64,000 nucleotides of DNA from Natronococcus sp. A-GB7 (GTDB lineage: Archaea > Halobacteriota > Halobacteria > Halobacteriales > Natrialbaceae): assembly GCF_029688865.1 (NCBI RefSeq), contig NZ_JARUKV010000013.1, positions 1 through 64,000 on the forward strand. The letters run 5' to 3'. The notes beneath the pieces were generated by a model, which did not search any database, had not been told where the DNA came from, and worked only from the letters and a program-made list of their open reading frames with translations. Below are positions 7,974-16,613 of this stretch, in pieces; positions within the stretch are counted from its first letter, which is position 1, and every line of letters starts with the position of its first letter. The translations under genes were made by a program, and so were the position numbers.

Positions 7974-7997
7974 CACCCACCGCTTCAGCGGTGGGTG
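7974..7997. mobile_element. IS200/IS605-like hairpin at the exporter gene 3' end
   Basis: This is a perfect 10-bp stem, CACCCACCGC TTCA GCGGTGGGTG. The stop codon of the ABC transporter gene (7985-7987) lies in its loop. A second inverted pair, GGCAG/CTGCC, lies just outside (about 7951-7972). It may be an insertion relic that now supplies the stop codon, or a terminator. Confidence 0.5.
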
Positions 7998-9796
7998 GCC
8001 GACGACCGGTATAGTGACGCGTAGGTTCGATCGGCAGCCAACAGTCGTTCGTGGTTCCCTCGTTCGACGATACGGCCGTCTTCCATCGCGTAGATCCGGT
8101 CGACGTCGGTCACGGAAGAGAGTCGATGAGTGATAACCACGAGGGTCCGGTCTGCGTTCCCGGTCGTGACGGCGTCGTACACGCGACGTTCCAGGTTCGC
8201 GTCGAGCTGACTCGACGCCTCGTCGAACACGAGCACGTCGGCGTCCTTGAGGAGCGCCCGCGCGATGGCGACGCGCTGGCGCTGACCGCCGGACAGTCGC
8301 ACCCCGTCGTCGCCGAGCACGGTCTCGTAGCCGTCGGGAAGCTCGTCGACGAACTCGGAGACCTGCGCGGCCGCACACGCTCGCTCGATCGCCGCCTCGC
8401 TGGCGTCGCGGTTGGCGACGGTGACGTTCCAGCGAAGGGTGGCGTCGAAGACGAACGGCTGCTGGCGAACGACCGCGACGCCGTCGCGCCAGCTCTCGAG
8501 ATCGTACGCATCCACCGGAACGGCGTCGGCCGTGACGCGTCCCTCGTCCGGGTCGTACACTCGAGCGAGCAACGCCGCGATCGTCGACTTGCCGGCGCCC
8601 GAGGGGCCGACGAACGCGACGAACTCGCCGCGCTCGATACGGAACGAGACGTCGCGGACCGCGGACGTAGCGGCCGTGTCGTAGGTGAACGTGACGCCGT
8701 CGAACTCGAGTCGTTCGATCGGGGTCGGAACGGCTCGGGATCCGGAGTCGCTCTCGCGGTGCTCCCGGAGTTCGTCGATGAACCGCTGCGTTCGAACCAG
8801 GTGCGGCAGGTTCCGTTCGATCGCGTACACCTCACTGTTGAGGCTGCTGATCTGCGGTGCGAGCCGAAATATCGCGAACAGAAACACCCCGAGGGCCGCA
8901 AGCGAGAGCCCAACGTGTGCCACCGCGACGTAGACGAGTCCGGAGACCACCGTTGCGGCGACGATGCGGTAGCCGTTCTTCAGCGCCGTTTCGTCCCTGT
9001 ATCCGCGAATCTGGGCGGTCTCGTACTCCCTGATAGCGTCGTCGAACCGGCGGCTGAACTCGCCCGCGAGGCCGTAGAGCTTCACGTCGCGAATTCCCTG
9101 CGTGCCGGCCTGGGCGTACCGCTGGATCCGCTCGTTCGCGTCCGCGACGCGCTCCCCGAGCTCGTAGCCGGGGGCGATACCGAACCGGAGGACGGCGGCG
9201 AGGGCCGCGAGGACGACGACCGTCCCGAGCGCGAGAACCGGCGCCAGATACAGCGCGACCGCGAGGTACATCGACACGAGGAGCAGTCGCTGGAAGAACG
9301 ACAGCAGCTGCCCGATCGCCGAGCTGGCGTAGGACGATTGGGTGACGAGGGCGTTCAGGATCTCGTCGGACCCCTCCCTGTCGAAGTACGCGACGTCGGC
9401 CTCGAGGGCCAGATCGTACGCCGTCGTCTGGAGATACGTAAAGTACCTGACCACCAGCGCGGCCTGCAGCCAGGCCACGAGGAAGCTCGCGGTGTAGCGA
9501 AGCGCCATGACCACGGCGACGCCGACGACGACGTATCCGAGGGAGAACGGAACGCCGAGGGCGGCGTAGATCTCGACGAACATCCCGAGCAGACCGTCGG
9601 CACCCCCGTTCGGCGACTCGTCGGTCTGTACCGTCTCCACGATCGGGACGATGAACGTCAACCCGATTCCCTCCAGCAGCGCCGTTGCGAAGCTGAAGAC
9701 GGCGAGCAGGGCGATAGTGAGCGGTCGATGAGCGGCGACTCTGCGGAGCGCTCGATACTGCTCCCCGACCGAAGCCGGCTCGTCGTTCTGGACCAT
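7985..9796 (-). CDS. ABC transporter, exporter type with fused membrane and ATPase domains (lasso D-like)
   Basis: The 603-residue protein has an N-terminal six-helix exporter domain (about residues 25-320) and a C-terminal nucleotide-binding domain with Walker A GPSGAGKST, signature LSGGQRQRVAIARALL, Walker B VLVFDEASSQLD and the switch His in ITHRLSS. It is divergent from the PqqD gene and shares a 120-bp promoter region with it; in lasso-peptide loci the D gene exports the mature peptide. The start at 9796 is chosen because a TATA-like box lies at 9831-9844. The longer upstream frame would begin before the promoter and inside the divergent gene. Confidence 0.9.
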   Translation of the reverse strand: MVQNDEPASVGEQYRALRRVAAHRPLTIALLAVFSFATALLEGIGLTFIVPIVETVQTDESPNGGADGLLGMFVEIYAALGVPFSLGYVVVGVAVVMALRYTASFLVAWLQAALVVRYFTYLQTTAYDLALEADVAYFDREGSDEILNALVTQSSYASSAIGQLLSFFQRLLLVSMYLAVALYLAPVLALGTVVVLAALAAVLRFGIAPGYELGERVADANERIQRYAQAGTQGIRDVKLYGLAGEFSRRFDDAIREYETAQIRGYRDETALKNGYRIVAATVVSGLVYVAVAHVGLSLAALGVFLFAIFRLAPQISSLNSEVYAIERNLPHLVRTQRFIDELREHRESDSGSRAVPTPIERLEFDGVTFTYDTAATSAVRDVSFRIERGEFVAFVGPSGAGKSTIAALLARVYDPDEGRVTADAVPVDAYDLESWRDGVAVVRQQPFVFDATLRWNVTVANRDASEAAIERACAAAQVSEFVDELPDGYETVLGDDGVRLSGGQRQRVAIARALLKDADVLVFDEASSQLDANLERRVYDAVTTGNADRTLVVITHRLSSVTDVDRIYAMEDGRIVERGNHERLLAADRTYASLYRSSATHR

Positions 9797-9830
9797 GGAT
9801 CTCCGGAGCGTCTGTAATCGGGCACTCGCC

Positions 9831-9844
9831 ACCGTTATAACGGT
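9831..9844 (-). promoter_or_regulatory. Palindromic TATA region of the exporter gene
   Basis: ACCGTTATAACGGT is a perfect 14-bp palindrome containing a TATA-like core, about 35-48 nt upstream of the exporter start. It may be both promoter and operator. Confidence 0.5.
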
Positions 9845-9880
9845 TTCCTGGCTTTTGGGAGCCACAGTGGCCGTACCCCT

Positions 9881-9890
9881 CGTTTTAAAC
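9881..9890 (+). promoter_or_regulatory. TATA box of the pqqD-like gene
   Basis: CGTTTTAAAC is centred about 30 nt upstream of ATG 9917, which fits a leaderless transcript and decides the start. Confidence 0.55.
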
Positions 9891-9916
9891 TGATAGCCGT
9901 GCTGATCCCGGTATCC

Positions 9917-10228
9917 ATGACGAAAGATCCGGCACGAATTCGAGACGAGACGGTCGTAACCCGGTCCGACGCGCCCCTCTCGACGACGATCGAGGACGAG
10001 ACGGTCCTCCTGAACCCCGACAGCGGCACGTACCACGGACTGAACGAGGTCGGGACGCGAGTCTGGACGCACCTCGAGTCCCCCGTTAGCGTCGGCGAAC
10101 TGGAGACGGTCGTCGCCGACGAACACGATGTCGCCGAGGCGGAGCTCGGTCCCGATATCAGGGCGTTCCTCGAGGACCTCCTCGAGGCCGACCTGATCGA
10201 ACTCCGGGGCGCTACCGATGATTCGTAG
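9917..10228 (+). CDS. PqqD-family RiPP recognition protein (lasso B1-like)
   Basis: The product is 103 residues. It has the compact PqqD/RRE layout: beta strands (DETVLLNPDSGTYHGLNEVG), then helices (TRVWTHLESPVSVGELETVV and IRAFLEDLLEADLIEL). RRE proteins bind the leader of a precursor peptide and present it to the peptidase; the YxxP motif seen in the three precursors here is the usual contact for lasso B1 proteins. It overlaps the next gene (B2) by 11 nt, so the pair is translated together. In-frame codons upstream of ATG 9917 would lie between the TATA box and the ATG. Confidence 0.9.
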   Translation: MTKDPARIRDETVVTRSDAPLSTTIEDETVLLNPDSGTYHGLNEVGTRVWTHLESPVSVGELETVVADEHDVAEAELGPDIRAFLEDLLEADLIELRGATDDS

Positions 10229-10649
10229 CGTCGTCCGTTACTGTCGTCGAGGCTACTCGCTACCGGTTCGTGACCAGTGGCTCCTCGTGGAGACCGTCCT
10301 CCTAGTGGTACTAGTCCGCGCCGGGCTGTTCGTCGCTTCGTACCCGTCGGTTCGTGACGGACTCGACGTCGCGTGTTCGGTCTTCGACGGGGCGTTTACA
10401 CCCGCTTGCCCGCGAGGGCGAGTGCCGTGGGCGGTCGAGCGGGTCGCGTCGGCTCTTCCGGGAACGCAGTCCTGTCTGGTCAGAGCGCTGGTCGCCGAAA
10501 CGCTTCTCGTTCGCCGCGGGTATCCGGCAGCTCTTCGGTTCGGCGTCGATCATTCTGACGAGGAGTTCGTCGCTCACGCGTGGGTCGAAAGCGGTAGCGA
10601 AGTGGTCGTCGGCGGCGAGGTGCGACCGGCGTTCACTCGACTTCGATGA
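10218..10649 (+). CDS. Transglutaminase-like leader peptidase (lasso B2-like)
   Basis: The 143-residue product matches lasso biosynthesis B2 proteins in length and motifs. It has a membrane-proximal N-terminus (SLPVRDQWLLVETVLLVVLV), the nucleophile Cys in GTQSCLVRALVAETLL, and the His in FVAHAWVE followed by an acidic residue, giving the Cys-His-Asp/Glu triad. Family role: cleavage of the precursor leader bound by the PqqD protein. Two CTAG tetranucleotides lie in its 5' part (10302-10314). A decayed copy lacking the Cys segment lies at 11598-11945. Confidence 0.88.
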   Translation: MIRSVVRYCRRGYSLPVRDQWLLVETVLLVVLVRAGLFVASYPSVRDGLDVACSVFDGAFTPACPRGRVPWAVERVASALPGTQSCLVRALVAETLLVRRGYPAALRFGVDHSDEEFVAHAWVESGSEVVVGGEVRPAFTRLR

Positions 10650-10672
10650 CGAGTAACTGAATCACACAGGTC

Positions 10673-10690
10673 TGTGAAATAGAATTATAT
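10673..10690 (+). promoter_or_regulatory. Promoter of precursor 1
   Basis: TGTGAAATAGAATTATAT combines BRE-like and TATA-like sequence. The same block is present upstream of precursors 2 and 3, at a similar distance (about 45 nt) from the ATG. Confidence 0.55.
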
Positions 10691-10731
10691 GCGGACGCGG
10701 CGTCGATTACCGTGCATCAGGTGACGATCCT

Positions 10732-10848
10732 ATGGGAGACGACTACGAGCCACCGCGGCTGACCACGTTCGGCAGCATCACGGAAGTAACGAAACAGGGG
10801 AAGTGCAACGGGAAAGGCTCGCCGAGCGAACTCTCCGTCGGCTACTGA
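10732..10848 (+). CDS. RiPP precursor peptide 1
   Basis: This gene encodes 38 residues. The leader MGDDYEPPRLTTFGSITEVT has the YxxP motif and the conserved Thr typical of lasso leaders; the likely core KQGKCNGKGSPSELSVGY includes a Cys and ends in GY. There is no Asp/Glu seven to nine residues after a plausible Gly-1, so a canonical macrolactam is not obvious. Precursor 2 reads on through the position of this stop codon (GGC in place of TGA), giving a longer C-terminus. The gene is directly downstream of B2 with its own promoter. Confidence 0.85.
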   Translation: MGDDYEPPRLTTFGSITEVTKQGKCNGKGSPSELSVGY

Positions 10849-10967
10849 CGGGGCCCGCGTGAGACGGGAGAAGTCCAGGGAGACGTTTGCGGTAGTAGAG
10901 CGAGCGGTGGCGAGGTGTGATCGGCGTTCGCCGACTTCGATGCTGGGCCGCTGAACTACACGGGTCT

Positions 10968-10985
10968 GTGAAATAGGATTATGTG
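10968..10985 (+). promoter_or_regulatory. Promoter of precursor 2
   Basis: TGTGAAATAGGATTATGT is the same element as upstream of precursor 1, with two substitutions in the TATA core. Confidence 0.5.
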
Positions 10986-11024
10986 CGGATGCGGCGTCGA
11001 CCCTGTATAACTGGTACCGATGAA

Positions 11025-11156
11025 ATGAGAGACGACTACGAGCCACCCCGGCTGACCACGTTCGGTAGCGTCACGGAGATAACAAAACGGGGGAAGGGCA
11101 AGGGTAGAGGCCCGCCGGACGAACTTCCTATCGGCTACGGCCGAGGGCCCCCGTGA
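11025..11156 (+). CDS. RiPP precursor peptide 2
   Basis: This gene encodes 43 residues. The leader MRDDYEPPRLTTFGSVTEIT is nearly identical to that of precursor 1; the putative core KRGKGKGRGPPDELPIGYGR plus GPP is basic and Gly/Pro-rich. The segment G-x-P-x-E-L-x-(V/I)-G-Y aligns with precursor 1, and PIGYG with precursor 3. Acidic residues lie too far from the core N-terminus for standard lasso ring closure. A start at 11022 would read into an in-frame stop, so ATG 11025 is used. Confidence 0.8.
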   Translation: MRDDYEPPRLTTFGSVTEITKRGKGKGRGPPDELPIGYGRGPP

Positions 11157-11159
11157 GAC

Positions 11160-11597
11160 AGTGAGCGGAACGTAGACACCGTTTCGATCGGCGATCGTAC
11201 CGTCGAGTCGTCGGTTTCGATCCCCGAGGTCGAGCGGGCTCGATCGACGTCGAGTATCACGACGAAGCCGGACGTCACGACCAGGTGCGGACGCGTCGAA
11301 ACCCGCCGGCACGGATCGGAGCGCCCCAGCGTATCGATGGGTGACCGAACCGTCTCGATGTCTCCCCCCGGAATCGGTCGATTCGAAATTCGAACGGGAA
11401 ACGAGACCGAATCGGTCCGGTCGGCCGCACCCGAAGCTCGCGGACGATCGGTTCGGTTTCGAGGTGCCGCCCTCGACTCAACCGCTCGAGACGACGAAGC
11501 AGTACTATCGCATCCCCGAGCCTCCCGCTCGAGTACCCGATCGGATCTGTGTGGTCTTCTCCCTCGAGCGCGAGTCGGTGCTCGCAGTCGGTTTCGT
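11160..11597 (+). pseudogene. Decayed HPr-kinase-like gene copy
   Basis: Nucleotide similarity to the intact kinase gene at 12202-13080 is visible in two blocks. The first (about 11200-11400, TTTCGATCCCCGAGGT and GATTCGAAATTCGAAC) matches its 5' part. The second (about 11425-11597) matches the segment encoding KLADDRFAFEVFPST and KQYYRVPEP. The intervening DNA that would encode the P-loop is missing and the frame is broken, so no active kinase can be made. It continues directly into a B2 remnant. Confidence 0.75.
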
Positions 11598-11945
11598 GAC
11601 CGGAGCAGCTCGCGGAACCCGTGCTACTAGTACTGGACTAGTCCGTGCGGGATGTTTCGTCGCTTCGTACTCGTCGGCTCACAACGGGTTCGACGTCTCG
11701 AGTTCGGTCCTCGATGGGGCGCTCACAGGAATTCGAGGAGGAAGCCCACGACTGAAGTCGTGAGTGACTTACACCCGCTTGGACGCGAGAACGAGTTCCG
11801 TGAGCGTCGAGCGAGTCGCGGGTATCCGGCAGCCCTGCGTTTCGGCGTCGATCTCCGAGAGGGAGCGTTCATCGTCCACGCGTTGATCGAAAGCGGTGCC
11901 GAGGGGGTGGCGGCGGTGAGGCGCGTCCGGCGTTCGCCCGACTCC
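11598..11945 (+). pseudogene. Decayed B2-like gene copy
   Basis: Two stretches match the intact B2 gene. One encodes VRAGCFVASYSSAHNGFDVS (compare VRAGLFVASYPSVRDGLDVA); the other encodes SRGYPAALRFGVDLREGAFI. The DNA for the catalytic Cys segment is deleted, and a 46-nt hairpin-bearing insertion (11725-11770) interrupts the first stretch. Frames shift between the parts. The 3' tail runs into the promoter of precursor 3. Confidence 0.75.
11725..11770. mobile_element. 46-nt hairpin-bearing insertion in the B2 pseudogene
   Basis: Compared with the intact B2 gene (GGGGCGTTTACACCCGCTT), the pseudogene reads GGGGCGCTC, then 46 extra nt, then ACACCCGCTT. The insert carries the hairpin CACGAC TGAA GTCGTG (11747-11762) of the IS200/IS605 end type and finishes with CTT next to AC, so a TTAC-like tetranucleotide marks the junction. 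It is either a solo end or an excision scar, without a transposase. Confidence 0.6.
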
Positions 11946-11973
11946 GGTAATGGATATCTGACCCACACCGATC

Positions 11974-11991
11974 CGTGAAGTAGCGTTATGT
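11974..11991 (+). promoter_or_regulatory. Promoter of precursor 3
   Basis: CCGTGAAGTAGCGTTATGT is a diverged copy of the block upstream of precursors 1 and 2. Confidence 0.45.
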
Positions 11992-12033
11992 ACTGACGGG
12001 GAGTCGATTGCCGTGTAGCAAGGTGACAATCAG

Positions 12034-12177
12034 ATGAGGGACGATTACGAGCCACCACGGCTGACCACGTTCGGAAACGTCGAGGAGATAACCAAACGAG
12101 GCGGAGGAGGCGGAGGCGGTGGCGGTGGAGGGGGCGGAGGCGGCGGAGGAGGAGGACCGATCGGCTACGGACAATAA
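12034..12177 (+). CDS. RiPP precursor peptide 3 with polyglycine core
   Basis: This gene encodes 47 residues. The leader MRDDYEPPRLTTFGNVEEIT matches the other two precursors, including YxxP and the conserved Thr. After KR come 19 consecutive Gly codons (12100-12156; GGA, GGC, GGT and GGG mixed, so not a simple homopolymer), then PIGYGQ. The Gly run has no acidic acceptor residue. Mixed codons and the preserved frame argue that it is translated. The kinase gene follows 24 nt downstream and lacks its own TATA box, suggesting cotranscription. Confidence 0.82.
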   Translation: MRDDYEPPRLTTFGNVEEITKRGGGGGGGGGGGGGGGGGGGPIGYGQ

Positions 12178-12201
12178 CGTTCCTTAGACAGCGAGAACCA
12201 C

Positions 12202-13080
12202 ATGGACCTCTTTTCGATTTACGATCTCACCGTCGAATCGTGCGTTTCGATCCCCGAGGTAGCGCGCGTTCGACCGGATCCGGGCGCCACGACGGAGCCG
12301 GACATCACGATCAGGTGCGAAAGCGTCGAGACGAACCGGGACGGGCCGGACCGTCTGGAGGTATCGGTCGACGACCGGGTCGTCTCGCTCTCCGTCCCCG
12401 AGGTCGGTTGGTTCGAAATCCGCGATGGAACGACGATCACCGTCGATTCCGTGACCGAGCTCTCGGACCAGCAGGTCCGTGCGGTTCTCACGGGTCCGGC
12501 GCTTGGCTACCTCCTCTATCAGCGCGGGCTACTGGTGCTCCACGGGAGCGCCGTCGCGCGCGACGGGGCGGGCTACCTCTTTCTCGGGACGAAAGGCGCG
12601 GGGAAATCGACGACGGCGGGCACGCTGGCTCGACAAGGATACGCCGTCCTCTCCGACGACGTTACCGTAATCGACGTTCGCGACGGAGCGCTCCGACTCC
12701 TCCCCGGACGACCGCATCTGAAACTCGCGGACGACCGCTTCGCCTTCGAGGTGTTTCCCTCGACGGCGTCGCTCGAGATGACCAAACAGTACTACCGCGT
12801 CCCGGAACCCGCGCCTCGAGCGCCCGAACGGATCGGCGCGGTCTTCCTCCTCGAGCGCGGGTCGGAGCTCGCAGTCGAGGAGCTGCCACCGAGCGCTGCC
12901 GTCTGGGGGGTGCTCGAGCAGCTGTACGTTCGCCAGTTCAGCGACGAACTGAACAGCGAACGCTGTTTCGAGCAGGCGACCGCCCTCGTCGATCGGACGT
13001 CGATTCGACGGCTCGTCCGACCCGACGATACCGATGCGCTATCCGAGATCCCATCACTCATCACCGATGTCGACAGCTGA
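12202..13080 (+). CDS. HPr-kinase-like protein (lasso K-like)
   Basis: The 292-residue product has an N-terminal beta-rich domain followed by a HprK/P-type kinase core. Walker A is GTKGAGKS (about residues 129-136), followed by LSDDVTVID (about 151-159) and the GRPHLKL segment. HPr-kinase homologues in paeninodin-type lasso loci phosphorylate the C-terminal Ser of the precursor; here two of the three precursors lack a suitable C-terminal Ser, so the target may be Tyr or another step. The gene overlaps the nucleotidyltransferase gene by 14 nt. A deleted copy lies upstream at 11160-11597. Confidence 0.85.
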   Translation: MDLFSIYDLTVESCVSIPEVARVRPDPGATTEPDITIRCESVETNRDGPDRLEVSVDDRVVSLSVPEVGWFEIRDGTTITVDSVTELSDQQVRAVLTGPALGYLLYQRGLLVLHGSAVARDGAGYLFLGTKGAGKSTTAGTLARQGYAVLSDDVTVIDVRDGALRLLPGRPHLKLADDRFAFEVFPSTASLEMTKQYYRVPEPAPRAPERIGAVFLLERGSELAVEELPPSAAVWGVLEQLYVRQFSDELNSERCFEQATALVDRTSIRRLVRPDDTDALSEIPSLITDVDS

Positions 13081-14266
13081 TATCGATACTCCGTTCGCCC
13101 GTCCGGAAGACGCCCTGCAACGGCCCGAACACCGGTTCCTCCTGCGGTGCGTGCGACAGACGACGCACGACGTCCCGCGGGTCGAACCGCCCGCGGCGGA
13201 CGAGTTCGACTGGGAGTACTTCCGCCGACTCGCGAACGACCACCGTCTCGCGTCGCTGGTCAACCGCTGTCTCACCGACGAGGCGAAAGCGGCCATCCCC
13301 GACGCGGTCGTCGCGGACTTCGAGTCGATCGCCGAGTGGGTGACGTACCGAAACCTCGGGATGATCGGGACGACTCGAGCGGTGCTCTCGCTCCTCGAGG
13401 CGCGCGGAATCAGCGCGCTTCCGTACAAGGGGCCGGTTCTCGCCGCCGTCGTTCACGGCGACCTCGCCTTTCGGGGGTCGAAGGACGTCGACGTCCTGCT
13501 CCCGAAGGCGGAGATCTCGGCCGCGAGGGAGACCCTGCTAGCGAACGGATTCCGACCGAAGGATCCGTCGGCGATCGGAACCGAACCCGGCGAGATGGGG
13601 AGTAACCGCCACTCGACGGTCGTCAGCGAGGACGACATCCGGGTCGAACTGCACTGGCGAATTACGGGAAATCGGTTCCCGTTCGCGGTCGACTTCGAGC
13701 GGTTGTGGCGGACCCGCGAAACGGCCGACGTCGGGGGCACGACGATGCCGATACCGTCGCTCGACGAACTCGTCGTCCCCCTCGCGGTACACGGGAACCG
13801 CCACTGCTGGTCGGAGCTGGCGTGGCTCTGTGACTTCGCCGGTACCGTCGACGCTCGCGACTTCGACTGGGGCGACCGACTCCGAGCGGCGTCCGATCTC
13901 GGGGCGAAACGAATGCTCCTGGTCGGATTGGGGCTGGTCGACCTCCTCACGGACGTCGAGTTACCTCCGATCGTTCGGCGCCACCTTCGATCCGATCGGG
14001 TGGCGAACGAGCTGTCGAAGGCGGTGGTGACGTCGTTTCTGTGGACCGCGGCCCCCTCGACACTCGCGACGGTCCGGTACATGCTCCGGGTTCGAGAACG
14101 TCCCACGGATACGCTCAGAGCGGTCGCGAGACTGGCGTTGCTTCCCGGGAGAAAGGACTTCGAACTCCTCCCGCCTCGCGCCCGATACTATCCGCTCGCG
14201 GTCGCCTGCCGACCGATTCGGATAGCGGGGACGGCCGGCACGAACGCGGCGGGTCGGTTCCGCTGA
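13067..14266 (+). CDS. Nucleotidyltransferase-family protein (NTP_transf_5 type)
   Basis: The protein is 399 residues from ATG 13067. The motif block LPYKGPVLAAVVHGDLAFRG followed by KDVDVLLP is the Pol-beta-like nucleotidyltransferase signature of this family (the DxD of the metal site is DVD). It is followed by VELHWRI and PSLDELVVPLAVHG. Genes of this family recur in lasso and related RiPP loci beside an HPr-kinase homologue, where they are thought to modify the peptide further. It is the last gene of the locus and is translationally coupled to the kinase by the overlap, which fixes the start. Confidence 0.82.
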   Translation: MSTADIDTPFARPEDALQRPEHRFLLRCVRQTTHDVPRVEPPAADEFDWEYFRRLANDHRLASLVNRCLTDEAKAAIPDAVVADFESIAEWVTYRNLGMIGTTRAVLSLLEARGISALPYKGPVLAAVVHGDLAFRGSKDVDVLLPKAEISAARETLLANGFRPKDPSAIGTEPGEMGSNRHSTVVSEDDIRVELHWRITGNRFPFAVDFERLWRTRETADVGGTTMPIPSLDELVVPLAVHGNRHCWSELAWLCDFAGTVDARDFDWGDRLRAASDLGAKRMLLVGLGLVDLLTDVELPPIVRRHLRSDRVANELSKAVVTSFLWTAAPSTLATVRYMLRVRERPTDTLRAVARLALLPGRKDFELLPPRARYYPLAVACRPIRIAGTAGTNAAGRFR

Positions 14267-14327
14267 GGGAGTCGAGACCGGAGCAACGTCGTATTACCGC
14301 ACCCTCAAGCCCGAAATCGTCGAGCGG

Positions 14328-14342
14328 ATTTACACCCCTCGG
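14328..14342 (+). promoter_or_regulatory. Leaderless promoter shared by paralogous loci
   Basis: ATTTACACCCCTCGG lies about 25 nt upstream of ATG 14359. A nearly identical sequence, TTTACACCCTCGGG, lies at 45411-45424 upstream of the paralogous small membrane gene, suggesting common regulation. Confidence 0.55.
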
Positions 14343-14358
14343 CGTGGACGGATGGCCG

Positions 14359-14631
14359 ATGACGACCCCGCGTCGACGTCGATACCTCCGGCTGCAGCTG
14401 GCCTGGCTGCTCGGAGCGTTGTTCGCCCTCCTTCTCGCGGGAGCCCTCTCCCTCGGCGCGTACGTCCTGCTTGCGGTGCTCGGAAGCGTCGTCCTCGACG
14501 GGCTGTTGACTCCCCACGAGGTCGAGCCGCGCTGGCGCCCGCGGTGGCTCGTTCCGGCCGGGCTCCTCGTAGCCGCGATCGTCGTCGCCGTCCGCACCCT
14601 CGAGCTGCTCGCGCCGGGGGTGATTCCGTGA
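14359..14631 (+). CDS. Small membrane protein, first gene of DUF4350 locus 1
   Basis: The 90-residue protein has a basic N-terminus (MTTPRRRRYLRLQLAW) and three hydrophobic segments. It is homologous in size, position and basic start to 45442-45744. The stop codon overlaps the GTG start of the DUF4350 gene (GTGA). Its role is unknown; the family always sits at the head of these haloarchaeal clusters in this window. Confidence 0.7.
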   Translation: MTTPRRRRYLRLQLAWLLGALFALLLAGALSLGAYVLLAVLGSVVLDGLLTPHEVEPRWRPRWLVPAGLLVAAIVVAVRTLELLAPGVIP

Positions 14632-15584: not shown

Positions 15585-16613
15585 ATGAGTCTCGAAGTCG
15601 AACACATAGACAGCATCGAGGAAGCGAACCGCAACCAGTGGAACCACGTCGTCGAGGGATCGGAGCTGGGCTGTGTCTTTCACCGCTACGAGTGGCTCCG
15701 GGCGATCGAGGAGGGGCTCGACTACGAGCCGAGACACCTCCTCGTCTCGAAGAAGGGCAACCCGATCGCCGTCCTCCCGAACTTCGTCACCCGCCTCGGC
15801 CCCGTCGCGCAGCTGACGTCGATCGAGCCGGGCTACGGCGGGCCGATCGCCGTCGCCGACGAGGAGTGGGCGCTCGAACTCCTGCTCGACGGCGTCGCCG
15901 AGCGCTGCGACGGACGGATCCTGTTCAACCGGTTCCGAACCTACGACGAGGGGTACGTGCGCTACCAGAACGTCCTCCGGGAGCGAGGGTACGACCTCAC
16001 CGTCCACTCCTGTCGGTTCGCGCTGGATCTCACCCGCGGCTGGGACGCGATCCTCGAGGGGATGGACGGCGAGCGCCGACGCGGTATCCGACGCGGCCGC
16101 GAGTCCGACCACGAGATCCGCGAGGAGCCCGTGACGCCCGCCGTGCTGGCCGACTTCTACGACGACTACGCGCGAGTGATGGATCGGGTCGGAATGGACG
16201 CCGTCCCCTACTCGTTTCTGTCCGCGCTCGAGGGGCTCGCGGATCGGATCACGATCCTCTCGCTGCGGGCCGACGGCGAGCGACGCGGGATGTACCTCTT
16301 TCTGGAGGACGACGAGCAGTCGGCGGTCCAGCACCTCTACACCGCCGTCACCAGGGACCACTTCGAGTACCACGCTCCCGAACTGCTCCACGAGCACGCG
16401 ATCGGACGGGCGATCGAGCGGGGGTACGAGACCTACGAGCTCCGCGGATCGACGCCCGACTTCAGGAACGGCGTCTTCGGTTTCAAGGAACGCTTCGGTG
16501 CCCGGCCGATCCCGCTGTTGCTGTGGGAACGGGGGCGGCCGTCCCCGGCGCTGTCGGCGCTGAATCTCGGGCGAACGCTCTACTGGCGGTTCGGGTCACC
16601 GACGTGGGACTGA
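15585..16613 (+). CDS. FemAB/GNAT-type acyltransferase
   Basis: The product is 342 residues from ATG 15585. The two-lobed GNAT layout of FemAB-like proteins is visible: NQWNHVVEGSELGCVFHRYE and LLVSKKGNPIAVLPNF in the first lobe, a charged RRGIRRGRESDHEI linker, then GMYLFLEDDEQSAVQHLYTA and YETYELRGSTPDFRNGVFGF KE-type motifs in the second. Members of this group transfer aminoacyl or acyl groups to glycans or cell-wall precursors. The flippase gene follows 54 nt downstream, suggesting modification of the exported glycan. The upstream extension of the frame lacks coding bias. Confidence 0.82.
   Translation: MSLEVEHIDSIEEANRNQWNHVVEGSELGCVFHRYEWLRAIEEGLDYEPRHLLVSKKGNPIAVLPNFVTRLGPVAQLTSIEPGYGGPIAVADEEWALELLLDGVAERCDGRILFNRFRTYDEGYVRYQNVLRERGYDLTVHSCRFALDLTRGWDAILEGMDGERRRGIRRGRESDHEIREEPVTPAVLADFYDDYARVMDRVGMDAVPYSFLSALEGLADRITILSLRADGERRGMYLFLEDDEQSAVQHLYTAVTRDHFEYHAPELLHEHAIGRAIERGYETYELRGSTPDFRNGVFGFKERFGARPIPLLLWERGRPSPALSALNLGRTLYWRFGSPTWD

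Follow-up and report, generated by a model that had tools for sequence, protein, structure and literature searches.

A polyglycine-core RiPP precursor in a cyclase-less, lasso-derived gene cluster of Natronococcus sp. A-GB7

Lasso peptides require an Asn-synthase-like cyclase, and an exporter is also part of the lasso clusters of the paeninodin/pseudomycoidin type. The cluster of the linear polyphosphorylated peptides (LPP) of Bacillota lacks a cyclase and was demonstrated experimentally to give linear phosphorylated peptides; the passages of the report drawn on here describe it as restricted to Bacillota (PMC13381572). According to the same passages, LppK needs Ser, as neither S3Y nor S3T was phosphorylated, the residues N33 and D70 of LppB hold Tyr-type leaders, and both LPP and paeninodin clusters of Bacilli are located near polysaccharide genes (PMC13381572). 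The HprK-like kinase of paeninodin acts on Ser as well, as stated in the corresponding section of its report (PMC9266682). As for archaea, the consulted part of a survey of archaeal RiPPs names lassopeptides once and holds nothing on a cyclase-less type (PMC12144867), and our literature search, with preprints and most subscription papers outside its reach, found no title or abstract describing a haloarchaeal cyclase-less family.

The DNA analyzed here, hereafter the window, is a stretch of 64,000 nucleotides from Natronococcus sp. A-GB7 (contig NZ_JARUKV010000013.1, positions 1 to 64,000), which carries on its forward strand, at 12034-12177, the gene of a precursor named A3, whose 48 codons read MRDDYEPPRLTTFGNVEEITKRGGGGGGGGGGGGGGGGGGGPIGYGQ and then stop. 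The initial annotation had claimed an ORF with 19 glycines and a PIGYGQ end at this place, and the translation agrees, the layout being MRDDYEPPRLTTFGNVEEITKR-G19-PIGYGQ. Its further claim of a RiPP precursor with a leader is borne out by the match of the A3 leader to the model NF033521 lasso_leader_L3 (22.4 bits, cut-off 19), while a match to lasso_cyano stayed under the cut-off. Both features of lasso-type leaders, the motif YxxPxLxxxG, which falls in the stretch YEPPRLTTFGNVEEIT, and a penultimate Thr, are present in A3. The boundary formerly placed before KR has to be shifted, however, since the last Thr (once Ser) of a leader was set at position -2, as in lasso peptides; the predicted leader (12034-12096) thus ends in EITK, and the predicted core (12097-12174) is R-G19-PIGYGQ.

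When the own genome was searched for the A3 peptide, exactly three such genes came up, all at the 10732-12177 locus, namely A3 and two upstream paralogs (E 2.6e-10 and 4.8e-8), A1 (10732-10848, forward strand, MGDDYEPPRLTTFGSITEVTKQGKCNGKGSPSELSVGY) and A2 (11025-11156, forward strand, MRDDYEPPRLTTFGSVTEITKRGKGKGRGPPDELPIGYGRGPP). The NF033521 scan of the window precursors covered A2 and A3, and A2 scored 22 bits (cut-off 19). The leader dN/dS was 0.12 for A2/A3 (six synonymous and three non-synonymous differences), 0.22 for A1/A3 and 0.27 for A1/A2, and against an orphan precursor of Natronococcus amylolyticus it was 0.10 (A1), 0.18 (A2) and 0.33 (A3); the sequences are short, and Fisher's p was below 0.05 in four of the six comparisons, the exceptions being A1/A2 (0.09) and A3/orphan (0.096). 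Judged from these codon comparisons, the leaders are under purifying selection (dN/dS 0.10-0.33), and the A2/orphan core, again short, gave 0.125. Because of the two upstream paralogs, the NF033521 match and the mainly synonymous leader differences, the A3 ORF is no chance reading. We conclude that 12034-12177 is a genuine precursor gene with an unusual core of polyglycine, and that the RiPP cluster to which it belongs is derived from the lasso type and has no cyclase.

A promoter-like direct repeat, D4, lies upstream of A1 (10638-10706, forward strand), with copies at 10932-11000 and 11939-12007 (83% and 71% identity), and a similar stretch is found upstream of the N. amylolyticus orphan; we infer that the repeat upstream of the precursors would serve as a promoter. 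One may argue that A1, perhaps with A2, is the sole working precursor, and that A3 merely came along with the tandem duplication and has no active peptide, even if one is produced. Among the three window precursors only A1 has Ser in the core, and the A3 core is the most divergent. However, it is A3 rather than A1 that stands immediately before the intact kinase and nucleotidyltransferase genes; moreover, A3 has its own upstream repeat copy, differs from A2 in the leader mostly by synonymous changes, and keeps the C-terminal PIGYG. We regard a byproduct as decidedly unlikely.

Divergent from the operon, an MsbA-like ABC exporter is encoded at 7985-9796 (reverse strand; Pfam ABC_tran and ABC_membrane, best NCBIfam model HepA/MsbA-type), and homologous ABC genes are located close to B2 in most related loci. 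It is followed by a discrete RRE, a PqqD-like B1 protein (9917-10228, forward strand; Pfam PqqD, 60.4 bits), which matches TbiB1 (5v1u, E 2.9e-11) as well as 9x90 and 9x8z, and keeps N and D where N33 and D70 of LppB align, the numbering offset being derived from the alignment and the published residue list. The B2 leader peptidase, a transglutaminase-like Cys protease (10218-10649, forward strand; NF033537 lasso_biosyn_B2, 81.7 bits, cut-off 33), is the sole PF13471 match in the own genome; its Cys and His are conserved, and the third triad residue varies through the whole set and is not clearly placed. Starting 25 bases past the A3 stop, an HprK-like peptide kinase (12202-13080, forward strand; TIGR04352 HprK_rel_A, 42.5 bits, under the model's own cut-off of 200) possesses all of H, K (in GAGKST), D and D, and next to it is an NTP_transf_5 nucleotidyltransferase (13067-14266, forward strand; Pfam NTP_transf_5, 173.8 bits, scanned from 13070). 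Rfam gave no match over 9800-14400. Further out there are genes for a polysaccharide flippase-like protein, an epimerase, DUF1616, DUF4350 and FemAB/GNAT proteins, with a glycosyltransferase, a polysaccharide deacetylase and a UDP-sugar dehydrogenase also in the surroundings, a gene content that points to a cell-surface polysaccharide locus. The FemAB/GNAT-type protein is encoded near the cluster, at 15588-16613, which may be chance; bacterial FemAB enzymes add glycine to peptides.

Compared with LPP, as portrayed in the passages used here, the window is alike in its RRE, HprK-like kinase, NTP transferase, MsbA-like exporter and missing cyclase, in the YxxP leader motif, the variable core and the polysaccharide genes nearby, and a linear product would be expected from it (PMC13381572). 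It differs in the leader peptidase, which is of the SpI type in LPP and B2 in the window; no match to signal peptidase models was found among 29 window proteins, a part of the window's ORFs, and B2 occupies the place of SpI (SipW-like). The LPP leader reads YxxPxVLxHQxIxFETxxS and agrees with the window's YEPPRLTTFGNVEEIT in YxxPx only, and the LPP core Ser is polyphosphorylated, whereas Ser is absent from the cores of A2 and A3 and occurs three times in that of A1 (PMC13381572). By leader consensus and core Ser, A3 is not an LPP. With the paeninodin/pseudomycoidin lasso clusters, as far as the section cited describes them, the window shares the lasso leader, B1, B2, the H-K-D-D kinase and the nucleotidyltransferase; unlike them, it has neither cyclase nor ring acid, and A2 and A3 lack a C-terminal Ser (PMC9266682).

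The absence of the cyclase was examined at several levels. None was found on the contig (C5), and a search of the window with 21 lasso cyclases revealed no cyclase or remnant (best E 0.041). Nor was a lasso-type cyclase detected in the own genome (G000; 77 contigs, 99.12% completeness), where Asn_synthase matches reach at most 79.4 bits, compared with 144-186 bits for the B2-adjacent cyclases of relatives. In addition, positions 7-9 of the A1, A2 and A3 cores contain no ring acid (Asp or Glu); the same split placed the acid at 7-9 in 18 of 28 cyclase-bearing precursors and at 10-12 or 6 in the other ten, which may reflect a shifted leader end. A3 therefore stands outside the lasso family as tested, having the leader, RRE and B2 and lacking both cyclase and ring acid, as the early remark that it could be no classical lasso had held. 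We also considered that a true lasso peptide is made here with the help of a cyclase encoded at a distant site. A cyclase in G126 is located about 20 kb from B2, an assembly in 77 contigs with 99.12% completeness could hide a gap, and a 622-aa Asn_synthase on contig C17 is the closest own-genome protein, with 83.6 bits to a lasso cyclase. However, true lasso cyclases score 595-833 bits against each other in the same test, proteins of C17-like length and score also occur in G087, which has no B2, the three window precursors lack Asp and Glu at core 7-9, and a ring of glycines alone offers no side chain for the macrolactam. A distant cyclase is thus highly improbable.

Between A2 and A3 lie two degraded gene copies. 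One is a kinase copy (11172-11589, forward strand; tblastn 82 bits; repeats D1 and D3 at 70-78%), in whose fragments the H-K-D-D residues were not found, and the other is a B2 copy that has lost its Cys region (11638-11947, forward strand; tblastn 42.7 bits; repeats D5-D7 and D9; alignment). Because of these two copies, the locus has partly been decaying, and its gene order would be explained most simply if a B2-A-kinase unit was duplicated in tandem and one of the two copies then decayed. A palindrome, CACGACT-GA-AGTCGTG (11741-11762), single in the window, is inserted in the degraded B2 copy and presumably resembles the ends of haloarchaeal IS200/IS605-type elements. The degraded copies speak for the main rival explanation, namely that a lasso cluster is in decay here, with the cyclase lost, one kinase and one B2 copy rotted, and the polyglycine a repeat expansion in a core that has lost its importance. 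We take this as rather unlikely, as the frames of RRE, B2, kinase and nucleotidyltransferase are intact with their catalytic motifs, and the leader dN/dS values and the A2/orphan core value given above argue against it.

The glycine tract itself (12100-12156, forward strand) consists of 9 GGA, 7 GGC, 2 GGT and 1 GGG codons, and by codon reading and TRF it is an imperfect GGAGGC array (8.5 copies, 82% match, with readings of period 9 and 3 as well). Runs of at least 16 GGN codons occur in 13 of the 125 family genomes, A3 being the sole place in the own genome. The other 12 runs (L111-L121, L123) count 17-29 Gly, all with mixed codons, and are in a linker-like setting within longer frames, 11 of them of 346-696 aa, with L118 at 63 aa as read; acidic stretches come after several of the 12. 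The initial annotation had argued from its mixed GGN codons against slippage, an argument that fails in view of the GGAGGC array and the 12 equally mixed runs. In the sister cores G alternates with K or R (RGKGKGRGPP in A2, QGRGRGPP in the orphan), and AGA to GGA changes together with hexamer expansion of such a Gly-rich core could have led to the 19-Gly run. Because of the TRF array, the G-K/R sister cores and the mixed runs elsewhere, GGAGGC expansion of a Gly-rich core is the most likely source of the run length. Such a hexamer expansion would suit a decaying cluster, whereas the constancy of GG at positions 1 and 2 in 19/19 Gly codons, the third base being mixed, speaks against decay, if weakly, because expansion copies variants.

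To place the window among haloarchaeal loci, B2 was searched in 125 family genomes (12 over cut-off, own included) and 391 class genomes, where at least about 45 matched positions below 59 bits, nearly all in frames longer than 660 aa, were left out. For 34 of the B2 loci (12 + 22), a stretch of about 18 kb was taken and its genes were mapped by tblastn, which together with the window gives 35 loci. Among these matches listed, a lasso cyclase is present in 18 loci and absent from 17. It is inside the ~18-kb stretch in 17 loci (L042, L044-L053, L091, L094, L096-L098, L104) and about 20 kb off in L106; the cyclase-less loci are the window, L043, L089, L090, L092, L093, L095, L099-L103, L105 and L107-L110. 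The window's gene order, with the ABC gene diverging from PqqD-B2-A-kinase-nucleotidyltransferase, recurs in 11 of the 17 (L093, L099-L103, L105, L107-L110). No Asn_synthase match above 80 bits was found in the whole genomes G000, G263, G240, G166, G152, G361 and G364. In eight further genomes of genus g36 there are matches of 317-322 bits, located on a different contig or at a great distance from the cluster, which were taken as ordinary asparagine synthetases because they match the model more strongly than any lasso cyclase does; G090 (L043) possesses a second cluster, and this one includes a lasso cyclase. Given the 17 of 35 loci and these whole-genome checks, clusters without cyclase recur among haloarchaea and are no single accident. 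In one other genus such clusters are maintained at ten similar loci, which speaks against decay.

With the other cyclase-less loci the window has B2, RRE and kinase in common, and with most of them the nucleotidyltransferase and ABC genes; the polyglycine core is found in the window alone and in none of the other 16. The haloarchaeal lasso clusters of this set have the same leader motif and, for the most part, homologous RRE, B2, kinase, nucleotidyltransferase and ABC genes; they differ from the window in that the cyclase is kept and the cores are longer, all with Ser. ORFs that fit a loose leader pattern but appeared leaderless by eye were excluded from the precursor set, and no precursor was found at L094 and L106. 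The 28 cyclase-bearing precursors have a median core of 26.5 aa, with Ser in 28/28, Tyr in 13/28 and [LIVTK]GS in the C-terminal half in 21/28. The median is 12 aa for the 17 distinct cyclase-less precursors, which include the window's three and the orphan and count nine loci with an identical precursor as one; Tyr occurs in 16/17, Ser in 10/17, and neither Ser nor Thr in seven (A2, A3, the orphan, L043, L092, L093, L110). The identical precursor, MKEYETPSVETYGTVEEKTNWWDHDDGYGKWS, belongs to genus g36 (L099-L103, L105, L107-L109), an unusual conservation for a RiPP core, and the L110 precursor deviates from it solely by a final D. Locus L089 (13726-17429, reverse strand; G364) possesses an array of six short precursors, whose cores measure 8-12 aa and contain GS in five cases; the array lies upstream of a single kinase/nucleotidyltransferase/ABC/RRE/B2 set without cyclase. 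At L104 (3868-4935, reverse strand), a second kinase, with Ser before its catalytic DD, and a precursor, MNSYKKPKISRIGDVEDITESGGTNDNAQCFSRAGKSDDYNPNC, adjoin a full lasso cluster.

Phylogenetically, the B2 tree grouped the window with cyclase-less loci (95/84), in a 17-row set that includes cyclase-bearing L042, whereas the kinase tree grouped it with cyclase-bearing loci (97/90); neither the PqqD tree nor a four-protein concatenated tree settled its placement, and long branches were present throughout. Loss of the cyclase may have occurred repeatedly.

The orphan, MAKDYEPPQVTTFGSITEITKQGRGRGPPENLPIGYGRGPP, is located in Natronococcus amylolyticus DSM 10524 (L073:8647-8772, reverse strand; G087:C30) and shares 74% identity with A2. 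This genome has no B2, no RRE over the cut-off and no NTP_transf_5, and no kinase is present within 18 kb, suggesting gene loss around a still intact precursor, which supports decay and runs partly against a simple story of a working cluster. Its neighbors are a short TFIIB-repeat protein (154 aa) and repeated gene fragments. N. amylolyticus was the only match in a precursor-alignment search of the genome contigs, and a kinase-alone search of them gave no relative. Outside the own genome and G087, a precursor profile met only weak matches in the 391 class genomes (best 9.4e-6, G191), which were set aside, and the regions at weak matches in G018, G027, G044 and G004 contained no cluster.

A further question concerns the residue to be modified. 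The C-termini of the window family show hGY (ELSVGY, ELPIGYG, GPIGYGQ) in place of the hGS of lasso precursors, and the two may be homologous positions. The A1 core has three Ser, including a GS. In the cores of A2 and A3, which lack both Ser and Thr, the site normally phosphorylated is missing and Tyr is the sole remaining hydroxyl. As known HprK-like kinases act on Ser, A3 would be either unphosphorylated or the substrate of a kinase accepting Tyr. A Ser before the catalytic DD of the kinase occurs in the window, L092, L093, L095, L099-L103, L105, L107-L110 and the second kinase of L104 (L104_2), with E, A, G or T elsewhere. This Ser is present in 15/17 rows with Tyr and no GS and in 0/14 GS rows, a pattern coded after seeing the data, with 6/37 kinases uncoded, and resting on three independent pairs without statistical power; L043 and L090 are contrary to it, and window A1 holds a GS. 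It was speculated that in haloarchaeal cyclase-less, B2-processed linear RiPPs the Ser of hGS has given way to the Tyr of hGY, which kinase and nucleotidyltransferase would modify, so that here Tyr ends a 19-Gly rod in a surface or secreted peptide with a Tyr-linked head group. We think this unlikely.

The explanation we favor, with a confidence only somewhat better than even, is that A3 yields a leader-guided, B2-cleaved and exported linear RiPP, a haloarchaeal counterpart of LPP with a polyglycine core. What the sequence itself provides for it is the leader with its signs of purifying selection, the paralogs, the enzymes with their motifs, the missing cyclase and the recurrence of this cyclase-less gene set in other haloarchaea; the degraded kinase and B2 copies, the conflicting trees, the lack of Ser and Thr in A2 and A3 and the poorly placed third residue of the B2 triad stand against an LPP-like working. 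The RRE would bind the YxxPxL leader, B2 would cut after EITK, modification of the core may be the task of the HprK-like kinase and the NTP_transf_5 protein, and the ABC protein would export linear R-G19-PIGYGQ. If so, ring-enzyme-free, leader-guided peptides would exist in archaea as in Bacillota, with another leader peptidase, and it would become testable whether what stays constant in these pathways is the kinase and nucleotidyltransferase rather than the lasso knot. The natural homopolymeric core would offer a handle on what RRE and B2 demand of any core, and the cluster suggests that archaea make straight-chain relatives of lasso peptides.
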